Shown here: positions 11,584 through 60,927 of the stretch, piece by piece | How positions within the stretch are numbered: the first letter of the stretch is position 1 | Layout: each line of letters begins with the position of its first letter | Notes under the pieces: model-generated | Told to the model about the DNA's origin: nothing | Seen by the model: the letters and a program-made list of their open reading frames with translations, nothing else | Database searches by the model: none | Assembly (NCBI RefSeq): GCF_003086295.3 | Contig: NC_092038.1 | Coordinates: 101,339,837-101,403,836 of the forward strand | Origin: Arachis hypogaea | Lineage: Eukaryota > Streptophyta > Magnoliopsida > Fabales > Fabaceae | Direction of reading: 5' to 3' | Length of the DNA stretch: 64,000 bases | Made by a program: the position numbers and the translations under genes

Positions 11584-13113
11584 TGATGAGCGGATATTTT
11601 ATACGCTTTTTGGGGGTAATTTCATGTAGATTTTAGTATGTTTTAATTAGTTTTTAGTAAAATATTATTCGTTTTTAGGCAAAAATCATATTTCTAGACT
11701 TTACTATGAGTTTGTGTGTTTTTCTGTGATTTCAGGTATTTTCTGGCTGAAATTGAGGGAGTTGAGCAAAAATCTGAGTTAGGCTGAAAAAGGACTGCTG
11801 ATGCTGTTGGATCCTGACCTTCTTGCACTCAGAATGGAATTTTTGGAGCTACAGAAGTCCAATTGGTGCGCTCTCAACGGCGTTGGAAAGTAGACATCCA
11901 GGGCTTTCCAGCAATATATAATAGTCTATACTTTGCACGAAGATAGACGATGTAACTTAGCGTTGAACGCCAAGTACATGCTGCTGTCTGGAGTTAAACG
12001 CCAGAAAAACGTCATGATCCGAAGTTGAACGCCCAAAACACGTTATAACGTGGAGTTCAACTCCAAGAAAGGCCTCAACTCGTGGATAGCTTTAGTCTCA
12101 GCCCCAGCACACACCAAGTGGGCCCCAGAAGTGGATTTCTGCACCAATTATCTTAGTTTACTCATATTCTGTAAACCTAGGATTACTAGTTTACTATTTA
12201 AACAACTTTTAGAGATTTATCTTGTACCTCATGACATTTTTAGATCTGAATTTTATACACTTTGACGGCATGAGTCTCTAAACTCCATTGTTGGGGGTGA
12301 GGAGCTCTGCAGCGTCTCGATGAATTAATGCAATTGTTTCTATTTCACTCAAACGTGTGTGTGTTCCAATCTAAGATGTTTATTTGCACTTAATTGTGAA
12401 GGAGGTGATGATCCGTGACACTCATCACCTTCCTCAACCCATGAACATGTGCTTGACAAATACCTCCGTTCTATATCAGAATGAATAAGCATCTCTTAGC
12501 TTCCTTAATCAGAATCTTCGTGGTATAAGCTAGAACTGATGGCGGCCATTCTTGAGGATCCGGAAAGTCTAAACCTTGTCTGTGGTATTCCGAGTAGGAT
12601 TCAAGGATTGAATGGCTGTGACGAGCTTCAAACTCGTGATTGCTGGGCGTGATGACAAACGCAAAAGGATCAATGGATCCTATTCCAACATGATCGAGAA
12701 CCGACAGCTGATTAGCCGTGCTGTGACAGAGCATCTGGAACATTTTCACCGAGAGGATGGGAAATAGCCACTGACAATGGTGACACCCTACATACAGCTT
12801 ACCGTAGACGGGCTTTACAAACAATTGAGTTGAATATTACATTGCAGAAATTCAGAAGACAAAGCATCTCCAAAACCCCAACATATTCCCCATTACTGCA
12901 CAACAAGTAACGATTTTATTCTCTTTTATTTTTTTTAATCTAATAATTCCAATTGATAATTTTGATTGACATCCTGACTAAGAATAATAAAATAAACATA
13001 GTTTGCTTCAAACCAATAATCTCCGTGGGATCGACCCTTACTCACGTAAGGTATTACTTGGACGACCCAGTGCACTTGCTGGTTAGTTGTACGGATTACA
13101 AATTCGTGCACCA
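11584..13113 (+). mobile_element. Solo LTR D, A/E3 family, 1530 bp
   Basis: Runs TGATGAGCGG to TTCGTGCACCA on + and is flanked by GCGTG (11579-11583 and 13114-13118). Its length equals that of the E3 LTRs. It carries four 31-bp-spaced palindromes (11959-12064) and a TATA-like TATTTAAA at 12195-12202. No internal sequence is present. Confidence 0.88.
11959..12064 (+). promoter_or_regulatory. 31-bp-spaced palindrome row in LTR D
   Basis: Four copies of a 13-bp odd palindrome start at 11959, 11990, 12021 and 12052: AGCGTTGAACGCC, GGAGTTAAACGCC, GAAGTTGAACGCC and GGAGTTCAACTCC. Spacing is exactly 31 bp each time. The last copy ends 130 bp before the TATA-like box. Confidence 0.8.
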
Positions 13114-21887: not shown

Positions 21888-22828
21888 GCGCCCGGTCTAA
21901 GGTAGAACAGAAGTGGTTGTCAGTCACGTGTTTATAGGTGAGAATGATGATGAGTGTCACGGATCATCACATTCATCATGTTGAAGTGCAACGAATATCT
22001 TAGAATAAGAACAAGTGGAATTGAATAGAAAATAGTAGTAATTACATTGAAACTTGAGGTACAGCAGAGCTCCACACCCTTAAGCTATGGTGTGTAGAAA
22101 CTCCACCGTTAAAAATACATAAGTGATGAAGGTTCAGGCATGGCCGAATGGCCAGCCCCCAAAACATGATCACAGGATCAAAAATACAATCCAGGATGTC
22201 TAATATGATCGTAAAAAGTCCTATTTATACTAGACTAGCTACTAGGGTTTACACAAGTAAGTAATTGATGCAGAAATCCACTTCCGGGGCCCACTTGATG
22301 TGTGCTTGGGCTGAGCTTGATTTTTACACGAGCTGAGACTTCTCTTGGAGTTGAACGCCAAGTTGTAACGTGTTTTTGGCGTTCAACTCTGGTTCGTGAC
22401 ATGTATCTGGCGTTTGACTCCAGAATGCAGCATAGAGCTGGCGTTGAGTGCCAGTTTACATCATCAAATCTCGAATAAAGTATGAACTATTATATATTTC
22501 TGGAAAGCTCTGGATGTCTTCTTTCTAAATCCATTGAGAGAGCGCCATTTGGAGTTCATTAGCTCCAGAAAATTCATTTCGAGTGCAGGGAGGTCAGATG
22601 CCAACAGCATCAGCAGTCCTTTGTCAGCCTTTTATCAGAGTTTTGCTCAGGTCCCTCAATTTCAGCCAGAAAATACCTGAAATCACAGAAAAACACACAA
22701 AATCATAGTAAAGTCCAGAAATATGAATTTAGCATAAAAACTAATGAAAATATCCCTAAAAGTAGCTAGATTATACTAAAAACTATCTAAAAACAATGTC
22801 AAAAAGCGTATAAATTATCCGCTCATCA
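21888..22828 (-). repeat. LTR of retroelement A, 5' (U3-side) portion
   Basis: Ends at 22828 with TCCGCTCATCA, the complement of the A-family LTR start. It contains a TATA-like CTATTTATAC (22221-22230) and four palindromes at 22347, 22378, 22409 and 22440. The first bases (GCGCCCGGT) do not continue cleanly from 8955, so a small deletion or rearrangement accompanied the arrival of element B. Confidence 0.75.
22347..22452 (-). promoter_or_regulatory. 31-bp-spaced palindrome row in LTR A
   Basis: Four degenerate copies start at 22347, 22378, 22409 and 22440: GGAGTTGAACGCC, GGCGTTCAACTCT, GGCGTTTGACTCC and GGCGTTGAGTGCC. Spacing is exactly 31 bp. The row lies about 117 bp upstream (element orientation) of the TATA-like box. 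Sequence has drifted, but spacing has not. Confidence 0.8.
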
Positions 22829-24748: not shown

Positions 24749-26278
24749 TGGTGCACGAAATTGCAATCACACTTTTGCAATCCCGCACAACTAACCAGCA
24801 AGTGTACTGGGTCGTCCAAGTAATACCTTGCGTGAGCAAGGGTCGATCCCACAGAGATTGTCGGCTTGAAGCAAGCTATGGTTATCTTGTAAATCTTAGT
24901 CAGGATATCAGAAATTATCAGGATTGATTGTGAAAAGCAAAAGAACATAAAATGATTACTTGTTTTGCAGTAATGGAGAATAGGTTGAGGTTTGGAGATG
25001 CTCCATCTTCTGAATCTCTGCTTTCCTACTGTCTTCTTCTTCAAACACGCAAGTCTCCTTCCATGGCAAGCTGTATGTAGGGTTTCACCGTTGTCAATGG
25101 CTACCTCCCATCCTCTCAGTGAAAACGATTGCATATGCTCTGTCACAGCATAGCGGAATTCATCTGTCGGTTCTCAATCAGGCCAGAATAGAATCCAGTG
25201 ATTCTTTTGCGTCTGTCACTAACGCCCCGCCTTCAGGAGTTTGAAGCACGTCACAGTCATTCAGTCATTGAATCCTACTCAGAATACCACAGACAAGGTT
25301 TAGACCTTCCGGATTCTCTTGAATGCCGCCATCAGTCTAGCTTATACCACGAAGATTCCGGTTAAAGAACCCAAGAGATAACTACTTAATCTAAGGTAGA
25401 ACGGAGGTGGTTGTCAAGCACGCGTTCATAGTTGAGAATGATGATGATTGTCATGGATCATCACATTCATCCGGGTTAAGAACAAGTATTATCTTAGAAT
25501 GGAAGCAAGCATGATTGAATGAGAAACAGTAGTAATTGCATTAATCCATCAAGACACAGCAGAGCTCCTCACCCCCAACCATGGGGTTTAGAGACTCATG
25601 CTGTAGAAAGTACACAAAGAAGGGTGTAAAGTGTCATGAGGTCATAAGGTACTGATACAATGTCAAAAGATCCTATTAATAGTAAACTAGTAGCCTAGGG
25701 TGTACAGAAATGAGTAAATGACGTAAAAATCCACTTCTGGGTCCACTTGGTGTGTGCTTGGGCTGAGCAATGAAGCAATTTCGTGTAGAGACCTTTTCTG
25801 GAGTTAAACGCCAGCTTTCATGCCAGTTTGGGCGTTTAACTCCAAGTTTTATGCCAGTTCCGGCGTTTAACGCTGGAATTTCTGAGGCTGTTTTGCCACG
25901 CCGGTTTGGGCCATCAAATCTTGGGCAAAGTATGGACTATCATATATTGCTGGAAAGCCCAGGATGTCTACTTTCCAACGCCATTGAGAGCGCGCCAATT
26001 GGGCTTCTGTAGCTCCAGAAAATCTACTTCGAGTGCAGGGAGGTCAGAATCCAACAGCATCTGCAGTCCTTTTTGGTCTCGGAATCAGATTTTTGCTCAG
26101 GACCCTCAATTTCAGCCAGAAAATACCTGAAATCACAGAAAAACACACAAACTCATAGTAAAGTCCAGAAAAGTGAATTTTAGCTAAAAACTAATAAAAA
26201 TATACTAAAAACTAACTAAATCATACTAAAAACATACTAAAAACAATGCCAAAAAGCATACAAATTATCCGCTCATCA
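24749..26278 (-). repeat. 3' LTR of E3
   Basis: Runs TGGTGCACGAAATTG to TCCGCTCATCA on +. Differences from the 5' LTR are single bases, mostly transitions, for example near 24811, 24863, 25195, 25457, 25853 and 26018. The DNA beyond 26278 (ACAACACCAAACTTAA) is the internal 3' terminus. Confidence 0.95.
25800..25874 (-). promoter_or_regulatory. 31-bp-spaced palindrome row in E3 3' LTR
   Basis: Three units start at 25800, 25831 and 25862: GGAGTTAAACGCC, GGCGTTTAACTCC and GGCGTTTAACGCT, exactly 31 bp apart. The row sits about 115 bp upstream (element orientation) of a TATA-like region near 25671-25690. Confidence 0.8.
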
Positions 26279-27241: not shown

Positions 27242-28354
27242 TCAACAACCTTGATTTTGAGAAGTGGATGCTCCCTCAGCTTGAGAGGAGAGCTTTTGGC
27301 GTTTCAACTCTTGGAGTTCACGCCCCTGCTTCTCTTGTTCCTTCAGTAATTTGCAGAGCATGCAGTTCTGATTCTGCTGTTCTTCCTTCAGTTGCTCCAT
27401 AGTCTCTTGCAACTTGATGATAGATGCTTCTAGGCTGGTCCAGTAGTCAATTCTTGGGAATTCAGGGAGGAATTCCTGCGCCCTCCTCTTGATAGAGTTG
27501 TCTTGCACTTGTCCTTCCATTGACTTCTTGGTGATTGGGTGTTCAATGGGTATGAACTCATCTACTCCCATCTTCACCCCAGCCTCTTTACAGAGCAAGG
27601 AGATCAGGCTTGGATAAGCCAATTTGGCTTCAGTGGAATTCTTATTTGCAATTGTGTAGATCTCACAAGCAATCACATGATGGACCTCCACTTCTTTTCC
27701 AAGCATAATGCAATGAATCATCACTGCTCTCTTGATGGTGACCTCAGAACGGTTGCTAGTGGGCAATATGGAACGCCCTATAAAGTCTAGCCAACCTCTT
27801 GCAATTGGTTTGAGGTCTCCCCTCTTGAGTTGGTTTGGGACACCCTTTGAATTGGTTATCCACTTAGTCCCAGGGAGGCATATGTCCTCTAGAACTTGAT
27901 CCAACCCTTTATCTACTCTCACCATCCTCCTATTGAAGGAATCAGGATCATCTTGCAGTTGAGGTAGTTTGAAGATTTCTCTTATTTTGTCCAGATGGAA
28001 GTACATAACTTTCCCTCTGACCATGGTTCTGTAGGTATGGTAAGCAGTTCCAGTCATTCTCTGCTTATCTGTCAGCCACATATTAGAGTAGAATTCCTGA
28101 ACCATGTTCCTTCCAACCTTTATTTCAGGATTGGTCAGAACTTCCTATCCTCTGTTTCGAATTTGCTCTTGGATCCCTGGATATTCATCTTCTTTCAGAT
28201 CAAATTTAACTTCCGGGATCACTGACCTCAGACCCATTATTTTGTGATAATGGTCTTCATGTTCTTTGGTTAAGAACTTCTCTTGATTCCAAAGATTCTT
28301 TGGATTATTCTCTTTCTTTCCTCTTAAATTGGTTTGTTTTCCTTTAGGAGCCAT
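27242..28354 (-). pseudogene. E3 ORF3: putative plant transposon-domain protein, one internal stop
   Basis: The frame opens MAPKGKQTNLRGKKENNPKN at 28354 and runs to 27242 (370 codons) with one in-frame TAG at 28142-28144. The core (VQEFYSNMWL, GTKWITNSKGV, GWLDFIGRSILPTSN, RAVMIHCIMLGKEVEVHHVI) matches the type in element B ORF3. The C-terminal third is a Gln/Glu/Lys coiled coil (LQETMEQLKEEQQNQNCMLC) followed by a short Ser-rich tail. It sits in the position of the env-like gene of Athila elements, but no signal peptide or fusion-protein feature was seen. Its role is unknown; DNA- or RNA-binding is possible given the basic N-terminus. Confidence 0.8.
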
Positions 28355-28770
28355 GATCTTGATGAATCTTGGCTTAGTGATCACGGAAAAGCACACCAAA
28401 CTTAGAGGTTTGCTTGTCCTCAAGCAAAAAGAAAAGAAAGAAGAGAAGAGAGAGAGAGAGAGGAAGAGGAAATTCGAATGGTGTGGGGAATGAGGGGTGA
28501 GAAACATGTATTTATAGAGTGGGGGGAAGAGATTTTCGAAAAAAAGAAAAATTTGAAAGGAGATTTGAGGAGATATGGAAAGAAATTGAAAGAAGGGTGA
28601 GTTTTTGAACAAAATTTGGGAATGATTTGGAAGATTTGAAGAATGATTTTGAAAATTTGAAAGTGAATGATGAGAGATTGAAATGTGTTTTTGTAGAAAA
28701 ATATGGGAAAGAAAAGGAAAGTATGAAAAAATCTGAGTTGAAAACAAAATTGTGGTCCCCCCACCTTTCT
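28355..28770 (-). other. Spacer between palindrome array and ORF3 of E3
   Basis: About 415 bp, mainly AT-rich with a GA/CT tract at 28436-28470. In element orientation it is the leader of ORF3. Open frames on minus continue through it but are low-complexity (Phe/Ser/Leu-rich) and not credible coding sequence. Confidence 0.55.
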
Positions 28771-29065
28771 GGCGTTAAACGCCCAGAATGGCACTCATTC
28801 TGGCGTTTAACGCCCAATTGGCACCCCTTTTGGGCGTTTAACGCCCAGCCAGGTGCCCTGGCTGGCGTTAAACGCCAGAAATCCTTTAGCACTGGGCGTT
28901 TTTCTGAACGCCCAGGATGCTGCACACCTGGCGTTAAACGCCCAGAATGGTGCCCATTCTGGCGTTTAACGCCCAAAATGGCACCATTCCTGGCGTTAAA
29001 CGCCCAGAATGGTACCCATTCTGGCGTTTAACGCCCAAAATGCACCTTACTGGCGTTTTTTCGCC
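28771..29065 (-). repeat. Ten-unit palindrome array between integrase and ORF3 of E3
   Basis: Units start at 28771, 28802, 28833, 28863, 28894, 28930, 28961, 28992, 29023 and 29052. Eight are exact GGCGTTAAACGCC or its complement GGCGTTTAACGCC. The unit at 28894 has a 5-bp insertion that explains its 36-bp step; the unit at 29052 is degenerate. The usual period is 31 bp (13-bp palindrome plus about 18-bp spacer). Neighbouring units often alternate in orientation, and spacers such as CAGAATGG and CCATTCTG are complementary. Pairs of units therefore form near-perfect inverted repeats of about 45 bp that could fold as strong RNA hairpins. Confidence 0.9.
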
Positions 29066-29232: not shown

Positions 29233-32200
29233 TCACTCAAGCCTCAGTTTTGAGCATTCCTGCTCAAAGTTTCCTTCAAGATAATGCTTGATTCTCTGTC
29301 CATTAACAATGAACTTCTTGTCAGAATCAATATCCTGAAGCTCAACATATCCATATGGTGACACTCCTGTAATCACATACGGACCCCTCCAACGGGATTT
29401 GAGTTTTCCTGGAAACAGTCTGAGCCTAGAGTTGAAGAGCAGAACTTTTTGTCCTGGCTCAAAGACTCTGGTTGACAACTTCTTGTCATGCCATTTCTTT
29501 GCCTTTTCCTTATAAATTTTTGCATTTTCAAAGGCATTGAGTCTGAACTCCTCTAGCTCATTTAACTGGAGCAATCTTTTTTCACCAGCTAACTGTGCAT
29601 CCATGTTTAGGAATCTGGTTGCCCAGGAGGCTTTATGTTCCAGTTCCACAGGCAAATGACAGGCCTTCCCATACACCAGTTGGTATGGAGAGGTTCCTAT
29701 AGGAGTCTTGAATGCTGTTCTGTATGCCCACAGAGCATCATCCAAGCTCTTTGCCCAATCCTTTCTTCGGGCTATCACAGTCCGTTCTAGGATTCTTTTT
29801 AGCTCTCTGTTAGAGACCTCAGCTTGCCCATTTGTCTGTGGATGATACGGAGTTGCCACTTTGTGGCTAATTCCATACCTAACCATAGCAAGGTGTAGCT
29901 GTTTATTGCAGAAATGAGTGCCCCGTCACTGATTAGCACTCTGGGAACGCCAAACCTGCTGAAAATGTTTTTCTGGAGGAATTTCAGTACGGTCTTGGTA
30001 TCATTAGTGGGTGTAGCAATCGCTTCTACCCACTTAGATACATAGTCTACTGCCACCAGAATGTAAGTGTTTGAGTATGATGGTGGGAATGGCCCTATGA
30101 AGTCAATTCCCCATACATCAAACAATTCTATCTCTAATATCCCTTGTTGAGGCATTGCATATCCATGAGGCAAGTTACCAGCTCTTTAGCAACTGTCACA
30201 GTTACGCACAAACTCTCGGGAATCTTTATAGAGAGTAGGCCAGTAGAAGCCACATTGGAGGACTTTAGTGGCTGTTCGCTCACTTCCAAAATGTCCTCCA
30301 TACTGTGATCCATGGCAGTGCCATAGGATCCTTTGTGCTTCTTCTCTGGGTACACATCTGCGGATCACTCCGTCAGCACATCTCTTAAAGAGATATGGTT
30401 CATCCCAGAGGTAGTACTTGGCATCTGAAATTAATTTCTTTCTCTGCACGTAGCTGTACTCTTTTGGAATGAACCTCACAGCTTTAAAATTTGCAATATC
30501 TGCAAACCATGGAGCTTCCTGAATGGCAAAGAGTTGCTCATCTGGGAAAGTCTCAGAGATCTCAGTAGAAGGGAGGGACGCCCCAGCTACTGGCTCTATT
30601 CGGGACAGATGATCAGCTACTTGGTTCTCTGTCCCTTTTCTGTCTCTTATTTCTATATCAAACTCTTGCAGAAGCAACACCCATCTTATAAGCCTGGGTT
30701 TTGAATCCTGCTTTGTGAGTAAGTATTTAAGAGCAGCATGGTCAGTGTACACAACCACTTTGGACCCCACTAGATAGGATCTAAACTTGTCAATGACATA
30801 GACTACTGCAAGTAACTCTTTTTCTGTGGTTGTATAGTTCTTCTGTGCGTCATTTAGAACACGGCTGGCATAGTAAATGACGTGCAGAAGCTTGTTATGC
30901 CTCTGTCCCAACACTGCACCAATGGCATGGTCACTGGCATAACACATTAGTTCAAATGGTAATGTCCAATCTGGTGCAGAGATAACTGGTGCTGTGACCA
31001 GCTTAGCTTTCAGGGTCTCAAATGCTTGCAGACACTGTGTGTCAAACACAAATGGTGTGTCTACAGCTAACAGGTTACTCAGAGGTTTTGCGATTTTTGA
31101 AAAATCCTTTATAAACCTTTTGTAGAATCCTGCATGCCCCAGAAACTTCTGATTGCCTTAACATTGGCAGGTGGTGGTAATTTTTCAATTACCTCTACCT
31201 TTGCCTTATCCACCTCTATTCCCCTGCTTGAAATTTTGTGCCCAAGGACAATTCCTTCAGTCACCATAAAGTGACATTTCTCCCAGTTTAAAACCAGATT
31301 AGTCTCTTGGCACCTTTTCAAGACAAGTGCTAGGTGATTAAGACAGGAGCTAAATGAGTCTCCATATACTGAAAAGTCATCCATGAAGACTTCCAGAAAT
31401 TTTTCTACCATATCTGAGAAGATAGAGAGCATGCACCTCTGAAAGGTCGCAGGTGCATTGCACAGACCAAAAGGCATCCTCCTATAGGCAAACACGCCAG
31501 AAGGGCAGGTGAATGCTGTTTTCTCTTGGTCCTGAGGATCTACTGCAATTTGGTTGTAGCCTGAATAGCCATCCAAAAAGCAGTAATAATCATGGCCAGC
31601 TAGTCTTTCTAGCATTTGGTCTATGAATGGTAAAGGAAAATGATCCTTTCTGGTGGCTGTATTGAGCCTTCTGTAGTCAATACACATGCGCCACCCTGTG
31701 ACTGTCCTTGTAGGAACCAGTTCATTTTTTTCATTATGAACCACTGTCATGCCTCCCTTTTTGGGAACAACTTGGACAGGGCTCACCCAGGGGCTATCAG
31801 AAATGGGATAAATAATCCCAGCCTCTAGTAATTTAGTGACCTCTTTCTGCACCACCTCCTTCATGGCAGGATTTAGCCTCCTCTGTGGTTGGACCACTGG
31901 TTTGGCATTATCCTCCAATAGGATCTTGTGCATGCATCTAGCTGGGCTAATGCCCTTAAGATCACTTATGGACCACCCAAGAGCTGTCTTGTGTGTCCTT
32001 AGCACTTGAATCAGTGCTTCCTCTTCCTGTGAATTTAAAGCAGAGCTTATAATCACTGGAAAAGTGTCACCTTCTCCCAGAAATACATATTTCAGGGATG
32101 GTGGTAGTGGTTTGAGTTCAGGCTTGGGAGGCTTATCCTCCTCCTGAGGAATTTTCGAAAATTCCTTTGCCTCCTCTAGTTCTTCTTGATCAGGCTGAGC

Positions 32201-33066
32201 ATCTTTGAAGATGTCCTCAAGCTCTGATTCTAGGCTCTCAGCCATATTGATCTCTTCTACCAGAGAGTCAATAATGTCAGCGCCCATGCAGTCATTTGGT
32301 GTGTCTGGATGCTGCATGGCTTTTACAGCATTCAACTTGAACTCATCCTCATTGACTCTCAAGGTTACTTCCCCTTTTTGTACATCAATGAGAGTTCGTC
32401 CAGTTGCTAGGAAAGGTCTTCCTAGAATGAGAGTTGCACTCTTGTGCTCCTCCATTTCCAGCACCACAAAGTCAGTTGGAAAGGCAAATGGCCCAACTTT
32501 GACAATCATGTCCTCAATTATGCCTGATGGGTATTTAATGGAGCCATTAGCAAGTTGGAGGCATATCCGGGTTGGTTTGACTTCTCCAGTCAACCCAAGC
32601 TTTCTGATAGTGGGTGCAGGTATTAGATTGATGCTTGCTCCAAGATCACATAGAGCTGTCTTGGTGCAAGCACCTTCTAATGTGCATGGTATCATAAAGC
32701 TCCCTGGATCTTGAAGCTTTTCTGGTAAGCTCTTTAATATGACTGCACTGCATTCTTCAGTGAGAAACACTTTTTCAGTTTCTCTCCAATCCTTCTTATG
32801 ACTTAAGATTTCTTTCATGAGCTTAGCATAAGAAGGTATTTGCTCAAGTGCCTCTGCAAACGGAATCTTTATTTCAAGAGTCCTTAGATAGTCTGCAAAG
32901 CGGGCAAATTGCTTATCCTGTTCCGCTTGGCGGAGTTTTTGAGGATAAGGCATCTTGGCTTTATATTCTTCAACCTTAGATGCTGCAGGTTTATTCCTTA
33001 CAGAAGTGGTTGAAGAAGCCTTGTTAGAGGTATTACTGTCAGCACTTTCAGGTGTCTGATCCCCCT
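29233..33066 (-). pseudogene. E3 pol pseudogene: protease, RT, RNase H, integrase
   Basis: Domains in order: retropepsin (ALCDLGASINLIP, LILGRPFLATGRTLIDV; about 32700-32360); reverse transcriptase (WRMCIDYRRLN, FLDGYSGYNQI, MPFGLCNAPATFQR, active site FMDDFSVYG; 31830-31140); RNase H (31020-30600, [11 protein letters not shown]); integrase with an HHCC finger ([17 protein letters not shown]) and DDE core ([16 protein letters not shown]), ending with a C-terminal domain ([26 protein letters not shown]). The first RNase H acidic position is Tyr ([13 protein letters not shown]). Breaks: frameshifts near 33066, 31148 and 29925, and a stop at 30185-30187. The order PR-RT-RH-INT and the tRNA-Asp primer place it in Ty3/Gypsy, Athila-like. 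It is not active as it stands. Confidence 0.92.
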
Positions 33067-34236
33067 AGGCGTCTGAATGCCAGGATTGGGTGGAAATTGG
33101 GCGTTTAACGCCAGCTTTTCCCCCTTTTCTGGCGTTTGAACGCCAGAACTGGGCAAGGAATGGGCGTTTAACGCCAGCTTTCCTTCCCTTTCTGGCGTTT
33201 GAACGCCAATAACATTCCTCTCTGGGCTCTTACTGTCCTCAGAGGGATTTTGAACAGTGGTTTGGTTGTCCTCTGTCAATTGTTCCTTGTTTGGCTTTTT
33301 ACTCTTTTGAGCAGTGTTATTCAGGGTCTTCCCACTCCTCAATTGAACTGCTTGACATTCCTCTGTTATCTGTTTAGATAATTGCTGTTTTGCTTGGTTC
33401 AACTGCAGTTCTATGCTCTTGTTAGCAACTTTAGTTTCATGGAGCATCTCTTTAAAGTCTGCTAACTGTTCTGTCATCAGGAGCAATTGTTGATTAAGCT
33501 CAATTATTTGTTCTTGAGGACTAGGGTCAGTGACTACTGTCATGACTTCCTCTTTTGGAGAGAACTCATTGCTAGAATACAAATATTGGTTTCTAGCAAC
33601 AGTGTCTATAAGCTCTTGAGCTTCTTCAATTGTCTTCCTCATGTGTATAGATCCACCAGTTGAGTGGTCTAAAGACATCTGAGCTTTTTCTGTAAGCCCA
33701 TAGTAGAAAATGTCTAACTGTACCCACTCTGAAAACATTTCAGAGGGACATTTCCTTAGCATACCTCTATACCTCTCCCAGGCATTATAAAGGGATTCAT
33801 TATCCTCTTGTTTAAAGCCTTGGATGTCCAGCCTTAGCTGTGTCATCCTTTTGGGAGGGTAAAAATGATTCAGGAATTTGTCTGACAACTGTATCCATGT
33901 CTTTATGCTTGCTGTAGGTTGGTTATTCAACCACCTTTTAGCTTGATCTTTTACAGCAAATGGAAACAGTAATAGTCTGTAGACATCCTGATCCACCTCT
34001 TTATCATATACTGTGTTAGCAATTTGTAAAAACTGTGCCAGAAACTCAGTAGGCTCTTCCTGTGGAAGACCGGAATACTGGCAGTTTTGCTGCACTATGA
34101 TAATGAGTTGAGGATTTAGTTCAAAGCTGCTTGCTTTGATGGGAGGTGTACAGATGCTACTCCCATATGCAGCTGTAATGGGGTTAGCATATGACCCCAG
34201 AGTCCTTTTGGACTGATTAATCCCACTTAGGTCCAT
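32998..34236 (-). pseudogene. E3 gag (412 aa, out of frame with pol)
   Basis: The ATG at 34236 gives MDLSGINQSKRTLGSYANP. Athila-type capsid motifs follow: QQNCQYSGLPQEEPTEFL, LLFPFAVKDQAKRWLN, SEWVQLDIFYYGL, LDHSTGGSIHMRK. A coiled-coil region (residues about 220-290) leads to a Ser/Lys/Glu-rich tail containing repeated GVQTPE and KLALNA. The tail is encoded by palindromes of the 31-bp family. No CCHC zinc knuckle is visible. Homologues run straight into pol in one frame; here a frameshift near 33066 sends Gag to a stop at 32998. Gag would form the particle and bind genomic RNA. Confidence 0.85.
33100..33207 (-). repeat. Palindrome units inside the E3 gag tail
   Basis: Units start at 33100 (GGCGTTTAACGCC), 33131 (GGCGTTTGAACGCC), 33173 (GGCGTTTAACGCC) and 33194 (GGCGTTTGAACGCC). 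Steps are 31, 42 and 21 bp, each close to a whole number of helical turns. Translated on minus, the two forms give LALNA and GVQTP, so the DNA motif shapes the protein tail. Confidence 0.8.
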
Positions 34237-34801: not shown

Positions 34802-36331
34802 TGGTGCACGAAATTGCAATCACACTTTTGCAATCCCGCACAACTAACCAGCAAGTGTACTAGGTCGTCCAAGTAATACCTTGCGTGAGCAAGGGTCGAT
34901 CCCACAGAGATTGTCAGCTTGAAGCAAGCTATGGTTATCTTGTAAATCTTAGTCAGGATATCAGAAATTATCAGGATTGATTGTGAAAAGCAAAAGAACA
35001 TAAAATGATTACTTGTTTTGCAGTAATGGAGAATAGGTTGAGGTTTGGAGATGCTCCATCTTCTGAATCTCTGCTTTCCTACTGTCTTCTTCTTCAAACA
35101 CGCAAGTCTCCTTCCATGGCAAGCTGTATGTAGGGTTTCACCGTTGTCAATGGCTACCTCCCATCCTCTCAGTGAAAACGATTGCATATGCTCTGTCACA
35201 GCATAGCGGAATTCATCTGTCGGTTCTCAATCAGGCCGGAATAGAATCCAGTGATTCTTTTGCGTCTGTCACTAACGCCCCGCCTTCAGGAGTTTGAAGC
35301 ACGTCACAGTCATTCAGTCATTGAATCCTACTCAGAATACCACAGACAAGGTTTAGACCTTCCGGATTCTCTTGAATGCCGCCATCAGTCTAGCTTATAC
35401 CACGAAGATTCCGGTTAAAGAACCCAAGAGATAACTACTTAATCTAAGGTAGAACGGAGGTGGTTGTCAAGCACGCGTTCATAGTTGAGAATGATGATGA
35501 TTGTCACGGATCATCACATTCATCCGGGTTAAGAACAAGTATTATCTTAGAATGGAAGCAAGCATGATTGAATGAGAAACAGTAGTAATTGCATTAATCC
35601 ATCAAGACACAGCAGAGCTCCTCACCCCCAACCATGGGGTTTAGAGACTCATGCTGTAGAAAGTACACAAAGAAGGGTGTAAAGTGTCATGAGGTCATAA
35701 GGTACTGATACAATGTCAAAAGATCCTATTAATAGTAAACTAGTAGCCTAGGGTGTACAGAAATGAGTAAATGACGTAAAAATCCACTTCTGGGTCCACT
35801 TGGTGTGTGCTTGGGCTGAGCAATGAAGCAATTTCGTGTAGAGACCTTTTCTGGAGTTAAACGCCAGCTTTCATGCCAGTTTGGGCGTTTAACTCCAAGT
35901 TTTATGCTAGTTCCGGCGTTTAACGCTGGAATTTCTGAGGCTGTTTTGCCACGCCGGTTTGGGCCATCAAATCTTGGGCAAAGTATGGACTATCATATAT
36001 TTCTGGAAAGCCCAGGATGTCTACTTTCCAACGCCGTTGAGAGCGCGCCAATTGGACTTCTTTAGCTCCAGAAAATCCACTTCGAGTGCAGGGAGGTCAG
36101 AATCCAACAGCATCTGCAGTCCTTTTTGGTCTCGAAATCAGATTTTTGCTCAGGACCCTCAATTTCAGCCAGAAAATACCTAAAATCACAGAAAAACACA
36201 CAAACTCATAGTAAAGTCCAGAAAAGTGAATTTTAGCTAAAAACTAATAAAAATATACTAAAAACTAACTAAATCATACTAAAAACATACTAAAAACAAT
36301 GCCAAAAAGCATACAAATTATCCGCTCATCA
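34802..36331 (-). repeat. 5' LTR of E3
   Basis: A 1530-bp copy offset exactly 10,053 bp from the 3' LTR with no indels detected. Palindromes lie at 35853, 35884 and 35915. It is followed by target duplication GGGAT at 36332-36336. Confidence 0.95.
35853..35927 (-). promoter_or_regulatory. 31-bp-spaced palindrome row in E3 5' LTR
   Basis: Same three units as in the 3' LTR, at 35853, 35884 and 35915, in the U3 region that would drive transcription of E3. Confidence 0.8.
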
Positions 36332-40037: not shown

Positions 40038-40335
40038 TCTTTTTTAATAGGATCAATAATTCATATTACAATAAAATTACAATAAAAAATTTAATAAAAA
40101 TAAATAAAAAATTAAAATATAAAAGAGAGTACTAAAATGATTAAAAAATTGAAATATTTACGTGTCTAAAAGTGACTACAACAAATCTTTTTTAATGGAA
40201 TCAATAATTCATATTACAATAAACTTACAATAAAAAATTTAATAAAAATAAATAGAAAATTAAAACATGAAAGAGAATACTAAAATGATAAAAAAAAATT
40301 GAAATATTTACGTGTCTAAAATGACTACAACAAAT
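40038..40335. repeat. Tandem duplication, two copies of about 149 bp
   Basis: TCTTTTTTAATAGGATCAAT near 40038 and TCTTTTTTAATGGAATCAAT near 40187 begin two aligned copies. Both contain ATTTACGTGTCTAAAA and end in GACTACAACAAATCT. The copies differ by a few bases and small indels. Confidence 0.8.
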
Positions 40336-41140
40336 CTAAAAATTCTTATCGAAAAAACTATTAGAACCAATAAGGACTAGAAAAATCAAATGTAAATATA
40401 CATTAAGTGAATGCAGAAGCTATAACTTCTTCTTGCTTCAGGTGAACAAGCGCATTTAGGACGAAAAATCAATGTCTGCGTGCAGAGTAAAAAAAGTTAC
40501 CAAACACAAAAGGAAAGCGTTAAAAAATATAAATGCATTGAAATTCTTACACTGAAATTTTGCTACAAAAACATAAAAATCTCTTTTTTAATATTACATT
40601 TTTTTTCTTCTTATTATTTTTCTTTCTTTCTATCTTTCTTCTTTTTCTGTTGCACTTAGTTCTTTTTTTAAGAGTATTGCTTCTCGTATTAGATTTAAAT
40701 GAATATGTCTATACTATATTACAATCATATTTAGTTAAATGAATTCTTACTAGAAATTAAAATAATACCAAAATTTATTATATAACGCAGTGAAATTAAG
40801 TAGAACAAGTAAAAAAATTCGAAAAAGAATTAATAATGTCATTTACGCGTAAGAAGGAGATGATGTATCTAATATATAAAACAATACATAAATTTTTAAA
40901 GAATAACACCAAAATATCTTTACTTTAACACCGAAATTTCCATCTAAATGATGTGATAGAATTAAAAATTTATTTCATGAAAACTTGACTTGTAGAGTCA
41001 CAAATTTTAATAGAAAAAAATACCTGAAAAAATTTGAAGATAACGCAGCAAAAGTAAGCACAATAAGTGCAAAATTAGATAGAGAATGAATAATATTTTT
41101 TGTGTATAAGAAGCTAAGACGATGATGACTATGATAACAA

Positions 41141-49924: not shown

Positions 49925-49961
<37 letters not shown>
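49925..49961. repeat. (TA)n microsatellite in MULE-2
   Basis: About 37 bp of TA repeats directly beside the first right-end palindrome. Confidence 0.95.
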
Positions 49962-55399: not shown

Positions 55400-55448
<49 letters not shown>

Positions 55449-60696: not shown

Positions 60697-60802
60697 GGCG
60701 TTAAACGCCAAGTACACGCTGCTGTCTGGAGTTAAACGCCAGAAAAACGTCATGACCCGGAGTTAAACGCCCAAAACACGTCATAACTCAAAGTTTAACG
60801 CC
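60697..60802 (+). promoter_or_regulatory. 31-bp-spaced palindrome row in the 60-kb LTR
   Basis: Units start at 60697 (GGCGTTAAACGCC), 60728 (GGAGTTAAACGCC), 60759 (GGAGTTAAACGCC) and 60790 (AAAGTTTAACGCC-like, degenerate), exactly 31 bp apart, ending about 118 bp before TATATATA. Confidence 0.8.
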
Positions 60803-60919
60803 AAGAAATGCCTTAGCTCGTGGAATGATCAAGCTCAGCCCAAGCATACACCAAGTGGGCCCCGGAAGTGGATTTATGCATCAATTACTTACTCATGTAA
60901 ACCCTAGTAGCTAGTCTAG

Positions 60920-60927
60920 TATATATA
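60920..60927 (+). promoter_or_regulatory. Probable LTR TATA box
   Basis: TATATATA followed by GGACATTTA. The aligned position in LTR A is TATAAATAG and in LTR D is TATTTAAA, supporting a conserved core promoter about 600 bp into the LTR. Confidence 0.65.

Follow-up and report, generated by a model that had tools for sequence, protein, structure and literature searches.

Why do the long terminal repeats (LTRs) of peanut retrotransposons carry rows of short palindromes set almost exactly 31 bp apart, and what might read them? The question is raised by four 13-bp units on the forward strand at 60697–60802 of a 64,000-nucleotide stretch of Arachis hypogaea DNA (the window; contig NC_092038.1, positions 101,339,837 to 101,403,836). 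The original prediction took this row and those of three other LTRs as an enhancer for a dimeric transcription factor or as a product of selection on RNA or DNA structure.

Palindrome arrays in the window

All 15 unit coordinates on which that prediction was based are correct, and each of the 11 steps between them is exactly 31 bp. In addition to the array at 60697 (U3 region; steps 31/31/31), they describe U3 arrays at 11959–12064 (plus strand, LTR D, four units, steps 31/31/31), at 22347–22452 (minus strand, as is LTR A that contains it; four units, steps 31/31/31) and at 25800–25874 (minus strand, three units), the last of these in the 3′ LTR of an element designated E3. Two of the 15 units are perfect palindromes, eight match at five of six positions, four at four and one at three, and the imperfect units often have A for C at position 3 or T for G at its mirror. 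When up to three mismatches are allowed, the window contains 31 units, compared with 7–13 in five mononucleotide shuffles.

Three arrays, all on the minus strand of E3, were absent from the earlier list. The first is the U3 array of the 5′ LTR (35853–35927; three units starting at 35853, 35884 and 35915). The second, at 28771–29035, lies in the linker between the end of pol and an extra open reading frame (ORF) and comprises eight perfect 13-mers; six of its seven steps are 31 bp and one is 66 bp, the break being a unit with a 6-nt centre (28894–28913). The third, at 33068–33207, falls within the gag reading frame and has five units, the last with two mismatches. Its centres alternate between 2 and 1 nt and its dyads are 31.5 bp apart; 14- and 13-bp units alternate, so that two steps equal 21 codons. 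A similar array, with steps of 31 and 31.5 bp, occurs in an open 1,278-amino-acid frame beside a similar flanking peptide in L039, one of the loci retrieved from the genome (L numbers).

The claim that the arrangement is found in every LTR of the family, with a step that never changes, was too strong. The 31-bp step is present in all of the rows first noted, but there are exceptions among 23 LTR rows: L031 has one 30-bp step, L033 has steps of 30, 30, 20 and 51 bp, and in L002, which holds the second LTR of the 60.4-kb element, a short deletion (around position 1860) has removed one unit that the partner LTR keeps. A 28-bp step leads to a decayed first unit in six FIDEL-type loci, and steps are irregular in L030 as well as in L033.

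Other repeats were seen alongside the arrays. A 148-bp tandem repeat (40062–40367) lies in a region (39.4–42.4 kb) with many AT tandem repeats, and perfect TA dinucleotide runs occur at 49925–49961 (18.5 copies) and 55403–55446 (22 copies). A separate repeat consists of GGAGTTAAACTCC pairs 37 bp apart, with three copies in 21 kb among the matches listed (C1:9542701, 9547318 and 9563073).

Element E3 and the positions of the arrays

E3 (25.6–36.4 kb) encodes, on the minus strand, a gag ORF (PF03732; 32998–34335) with the coding array at its 3′ end, a pol ORF piece with aspartic protease and reverse transcriptase (31109–33064) and a second piece with RNase H and an integrase zinc-binding domain (30186–31157), which is the Ty3/gypsy order. 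The extra ORF that follows the linker array (27242–28144) matches PF20167, a putative plant transposon protein; a PF20167 ORF is also found downstream of the linker array in L021, these being the two loci checked. Extra ORFs are frequent in the Athila clade, which is described as belonging to the OTA superclade and lacking an additional RNase H (aRH) (PMC6317226).

We consider E3 to be related to FIDEL, judging from primer sites: the published FIDEL412 primers map to 35854–36036 (two mismatches in the forward primer, none in the reverse), which gives the published product size of 183 bp, and they map again to 25801–25983. The amplicon spans the U3 array. An expression ratio of 1.74-fold (up) is given for FIDEL412 in water-limited roots of Arachis duranensis (PMC3496627).

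Taken over the window and the retrieved loci, arrays occupy U3, a presumed 5′ leader (the array of L014 is probably a leader array), the 3′ end of gag and the linker that follows pol. The sequence AAGTTTGGTGT occurs upstream of the L014 array (around 1275) and again in L016 (around 2050), where it closely precedes the extra ORF, and could be a shared signal.

A 31-bp step across the genome

Neighbouring GGMGTTNAACKCC pairs with gaps of 8–38 bp number 168,867 across the genome of 2,557,474,382 bases, and in 161,652 of them the gap is exactly 18 bp, a step of 31 bp. A chance origin of the pairs is ruled out by the reversed-pattern control, which gave 0 pairs in the same genome-wide search. The palindrome ladders are real and far more numerous than was first reported. 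Pairs were counted separately at gaps of 1–17 bp (5,038) and 19–48 bp (6,429), ranges that partly overlap the first one. The step is 30 bp in 42 of the 50 matches listed for the shorter gaps; among the 50 listed for the longer gaps it is 32 bp in 19 and a double step of 60–61 bp in 21. Pairs with G/C centres are at step 31 in 20,370 of 24,933 cases, and all pairs with other centres, by subtraction, in 141,282 of 143,934. The step is strict, not absolute, and is looser in the G/C-centre class.

The suggestion that 31 bp, as about three helical turns, places all dyads on one face of the DNA does not account for this distribution. A pure helical-face rule would predict steps near 21 or 42 bp, which are rare among the matches listed, and we reject it.

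Anatomy of the rungs and spacers

Each unit, or rung, consists of two copies of the half-site GGMGTT in inverted orientation, usually around a one-base centre (GGMGTT-N-AACKCC). The 7-base arms GGGCGTT and AACGCCC form 58,879 pairs, 47,516 of which have a 1-nt centre and 11,363 a centre of 2–12 nt; the enlarged centres are mostly 3 or 6 nt among the matches listed. Beyond the 13-mer, offset 7 pairs in 69 of 123 distinct units, compared with 52.0 expected (1 of 500 shuffles), so palindromy reaches slightly past the 13-mer. Changes from C to A outnumber those from C to T in the rungs, a count biased by the unit definition, which accepts A at no cost. Linker-array rungs with a 5- or 6-nt centre and both arms intact were seen at 28894–28913 of the window and in L029, L032, L034, L035 and L039; the rungs that flank them are 64–67 bp apart, or 103 bp in L034, where two occur in a row.

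A second, weak dyad lies in the middle of the spacer, 15.5 bp from each rung (centre 22.5). Pairing at this centre is 0.42 in the set from retrieved loci (76 pairs) and 0.57 in the listed G/C set (34 pairs). Other spacer centres are mostly near 0.2, and the next highest values, 0.38 (centre 28.0) and 0.41 (centre 28.5), are near the spacer end. Spacers of the two sets have a mean identity of 0.42 in the best orientation, compared with 0.31 for shuffled spacers of the first set; both sets were chosen for matching rungs, so that rung constancy within them is partly data selection. Overall, mean spacer identity after drift ranges from 0.42 to 0.49.

Among distinct spacers that were not used in choosing a locus, 86 of 113 are exactly 18 bp, a count biased against 31 by fifteen loci (L024–L038) chosen for an irregular pair. 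The commonest length is 18 bp in 16 of 26 spacer clusters. The exceptions are concentrated in three settings: rungs whose centres are enlarged, the decayed unit that comes first in FIDEL-type LTRs, and the loci L030 and L033. The families differ in what their spacers contain: A-type LTR spacers contain ACGTCAT (for example, at 60747–60753), which we take to be bZIP-like, and FIDEL-type spacers contain forms of TGGTGCCAG.

TATA-like boxes downstream of the arrays

The array at 60697 is followed, 117 bp past its last unit, by a TATA-like box (TATATATA; 60920–60927, plus strand), and the array of LTR A, at the same distance, by another (TATAAATA; 22222–22229, minus strand). The original placement of the row about 115–130 bp upstream of a TATA-like box holds for part of the 14 distinct U3 arrays: TATAWA lies 117–119 bp past the last unit in seven and at 124 bp in one. 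The strict pattern is absent from the other six (D, both E3 arrays, L020, L023 and L031), which have looser AT-rich forms at the aligned place. Between array and TATA, the aligned LTRs also have GTGGGCCC or a near variant of it (60855–60862 in the window), presumably a TCP-like site.

The linker array of E3 has a TATAAA about 255 bp downstream (28511–28516, minus strand). In 10 of the 14 linker arrays that have a pol-end marker within 500 bp upstream, the first TATAWA lies 253–343 bp downstream; its surroundings are C-rich in nine of these, all but L036. Searched on the antisense side, the same 14 arrays have TATAWA within 700 bp in nine cases and at 240–350 bp in none; among random 700-bp pieces of the retrieved sequence, 38% contain it and 5% have the first one at 240–350 bp. 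Because TATAWA within 700 bp is common anyway, we rejected its mere presence there as evidence and used only the shared distance of 253–343 bp, which does not represent many independent events because the linker loci are related.

A candidate regulatory ladder

We tentatively propose that the arrays are promoter-proximal, cis-regulatory ladders of abundant Ty3/gypsy elements (FIDEL and its relatives) read by a dimeric DNA-binding factor, a plausible account that we hold with less than firm confidence. A factor of the host, or less likely one encoded by the element, would bind each rung as a dimer, and the 31-bp step, roughly three helical turns, would bring neighbouring dimers into contact. 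Once bound, the factor, most simply a transcriptional activator, would activate the promoters downstream, namely the U3 TATA about 118 bp away and, for many linker arrays, the TATA 253–343 bp away that precedes the extra ORF. Protein binding at the rungs and action on transcription are what we infer; the arrays, their genome-wide step, their U3, gag and linker positions, the independent half-sites and, in part, the downstream TATA-like boxes were observed directly.

Support comes from the half-sites. Positions 3 and 11 pair in 93 of 123 distinct units, and 92.9 would be expected if the two arms were independent. Such independent variation is as expected for a dimer, and this part of the original enhancer proposal stands; its 31-bp step does not amount to four independent observations. 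Because half-site variants do not covary, a dimeric protein is favoured over a folded stem. The step is, furthermore, shared by pairs whose centres differ and whose spacers are largely dissimilar. Against a rigid dimer, the 11,363 arm pairs with 2–12-nt centres should be poorly tolerated, and against a promoter role, arrays are also found within gag coding sequence, far from any known promoter.

If a factor does read the lattice, this would go some way to explaining the activation of very abundant peanut retrotransposons, for instance in drought, and that factor would have very many potential binding platforms across a crop genome. The idea of palindromic cis-arrays known from Sireviruses would then extend to Ty3/gypsy elements, which would offer a clean system for studying binding-site register.

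Possible inheritance of the spacing

The main rival to the dimeric-factor reading is neutral descent, which we regard as possible but somewhat doubtful. Here, the arrays would be ordinary, functionless tandem repeats: slippage, or a switch of template in the course of reverse transcription, would have multiplied a 31-bp unit containing a palindrome, recombination would have carried it between positions and families, and the step would simply record descent from one ancestor. The LTRs of the window and those of the retrieved loci can be aligned from upstream U3 through the array to the TATA box. The four insertions were originally counted as independent evidence; their LTRs are homologous and share an ancestor, and we reject four independent origins of the spacing. 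Because of this homology, the 31-bp spacing of the window LTRs appears to be at least partly inherited.

Nor does the spacing appear more constant than that of the upstream U3, which goes a good way towards the outcome that the original prediction named as refuting it. A control pair of 13-mers separated by 18 bp in the upstream U3 of the same LTRs occurs at 36,063 places with gaps of 8–38 bp (17,992 and 18,071 by strand), and the gap is 18 bp in all matches listed, which favours neutral repeats. So does the ratio of indels to substitutions, which in the array equals that of the upstream U3. Between the 60.6-kb and E3 LTRs, one of 28 LTR pairs computed, we counted 41 substitutions and 0 indels in the upstream U3, 46 and 1 in the array, 34 and 3 from there to the TATA box, and 71 and 9 beyond. 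The array does not differ from the upstream part (Fisher P = 1.0) and is weakly poorer in indels than the downstream part (12 per 105 substitutions; P = 0.11). When the reference is L033, an outgroup chosen because its step is irregular, indels number 4 per 29–33 substitutions in the array and 2–3 per 67–85 in the upstream part, a contrast that counts against selected spacing. Among the matches listed, most steps other than 31 differ from it by a single base (30 or 32) or are double steps, as neutral repeats would give. In addition, Ty3/gypsy elements of the Tat lineage often have tandem arrays between pol and the 3′ LTR, for which the function is given as unknown (PMC11963269, PMC7004042).

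Neutral descent fits less well with spacers that have drifted so far in sequence and are yet so often exactly 18 bp, with the recurrence of one rung in U3, gag and linker, and with a mid-spacer dyad, which would be unexpected in drifting filler. On the factor reading, the spacing would be selected, not merely inherited. Slightly more weight falls on neutral descent, and less on the factor reading, because of the TATA control on the antisense side and the contrast with L033. Even if neutral, the ladders would clearly illustrate how a single short palindrome can settle at several sites in several families of elements and largely retain its period.

Possible lattice, folded-RNA and silencing roles

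A stricter form of the protein reading, which we think unlikely, is a lattice of two dyads, strong every 31 bp and weak at 15.5 bp, that abundant retrotransposons would have laid out at more than 160,000 steps in a crop genome and that would be read by a single oligomeric protein and maintained at several positions per element, even in gag. We know of no name for a transposon-built regulatory lattice with a fixed protein–protein register.

Less likely again is a role in folded RNA or single-stranded cDNA, in which rows of hairpins in the genomic RNA would serve packaging, dimerization, translation or nuclear export. The internal arrays fold far better than their dinucleotide shuffles (z = −9.1, −8.4, −9.8 and −9.1 for four arrays) and the LTR arrays do so more weakly (−3.4, −2.6, −4.6 and −4.3), although palindromes fold well by construction and these scores do not separate the causes. 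Such a role is consistent with arms that stay intact around centres enlarged to 3 or 6 nt, with the array in the gag frame and with pairing that extends one base past the 13-mer. Selection on stems, in line with the originally suggested selection on RNA or DNA structure, would make the arms covary, but no compensatory change is seen at positions 3 and 11, and spacer self-complementarity does not exceed that of shuffled halves (z = −2.3, +1.0 and −2.4 for 21, 45 and 34 spacers). We therefore reject compensatory RNA pairing in rungs or spacers. A one-base centre, moreover, cannot close a hairpin unless pairs open, and hairpins need no fixed 31-bp step. A known Rfam RNA is likewise rejected for the window, which has 0 matches at the gathering score.

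It is very improbable that the arrays are a target of host silencing by siRNA or methylation: self-complementary transcripts could feed small-RNA pathways, and palindromic LTR regions of maize Sireviruses are reportedly such a target, but the fixed step would be left unexplained.

Comparison with known systems

A full-text search of the openly licensed PMC literature for six of the 13-mers returned no paper, and among the papers listed there on Arachis LTR palindromes, on palindromic tandem enhancers in plant Ty3 elements and on FIDEL with Athila, no title or abstract opening describes such an array. The array may already be in print, in the original description of FIDEL or in that of the maize Sirevirus palindromes.

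Tnt1, a Ty1/copia element of Solanaceae, has a few tandem U3 boxes that act as stress-responsive enhancers. These boxes and the peanut ladders are both repeated U3 elements, but Tnt1 is not known to have a palindrome ladder at internal positions. Its LTR is described as containing several cis-acting elements (PMC3496627). For FIDEL of Arachis itself, the FIDEL412 primers bracket the exact U3 stretch that holds the array; the available part of the same report treats expression, not the array.

The dimeric plant factor VOZ recognizes GCGTNx7ACGC (PMC6321167). This site and the rung both contain inverted GCGT and ACGC, with a centre of 7 nt in VOZ and of 3 nt in the standard rung (GCGT-N3-ACGC), larger centres being a minority. 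By this analogy, VOZ may be taken as a lead only.

Ogre and Retand, Ty3/gypsy elements of the Tat lineage with extra ORFs, resemble the peanut elements in having tandem arrays between pol and the 3′ LTR. In the available parts of the two reports, the Tat-lineage repeats are family-specific and variable in monomer sequence and length, whereas in peanut one rung and one 31-bp step are found across families and also in U3 and gag (PMC11963269, PMC7004042).

The nearest described system is that of the Sirevirus repeated motifs (RMs), short palindromes with at least eight copies per element and a proposed cis-regulatory role (PMC2829016). In the LTR they cluster ahead of the TATA box, and in the linker ahead of the extra (ENV) gene, whose start also carries them in two of the elements (PMC2829016). 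A CpG island flanked by the RMs and multiple polypurine tracts are further marks of that class. The peanut palindromes likewise lie upstream of the LTR TATA (at 117–119 bp in 7 of 14 U3 arrays and at 124 bp in one), with further copies in the linker after pol (14 loci) before an extra ORF, here PF20167 (E3 and L021). A fixed step, a mid-spacer dyad and copies in gag are features of the peanut arrays, and the available part of PMC2829016 makes no mention of them for the Sirevirus RMs. Sireviruses are Ty1/copia elements, whereas E3 lacks the Ty1/copia order (integrase before reverse transcriptase), and the RM core is CGG-CCG, compared with GGMGTT-N-AACKCC for the peanut rung. Because E3 is a Ty3/gypsy element and the motif core differs, the peanut arrays are comparable to Sirevirus RMs in layout and not members of that class.
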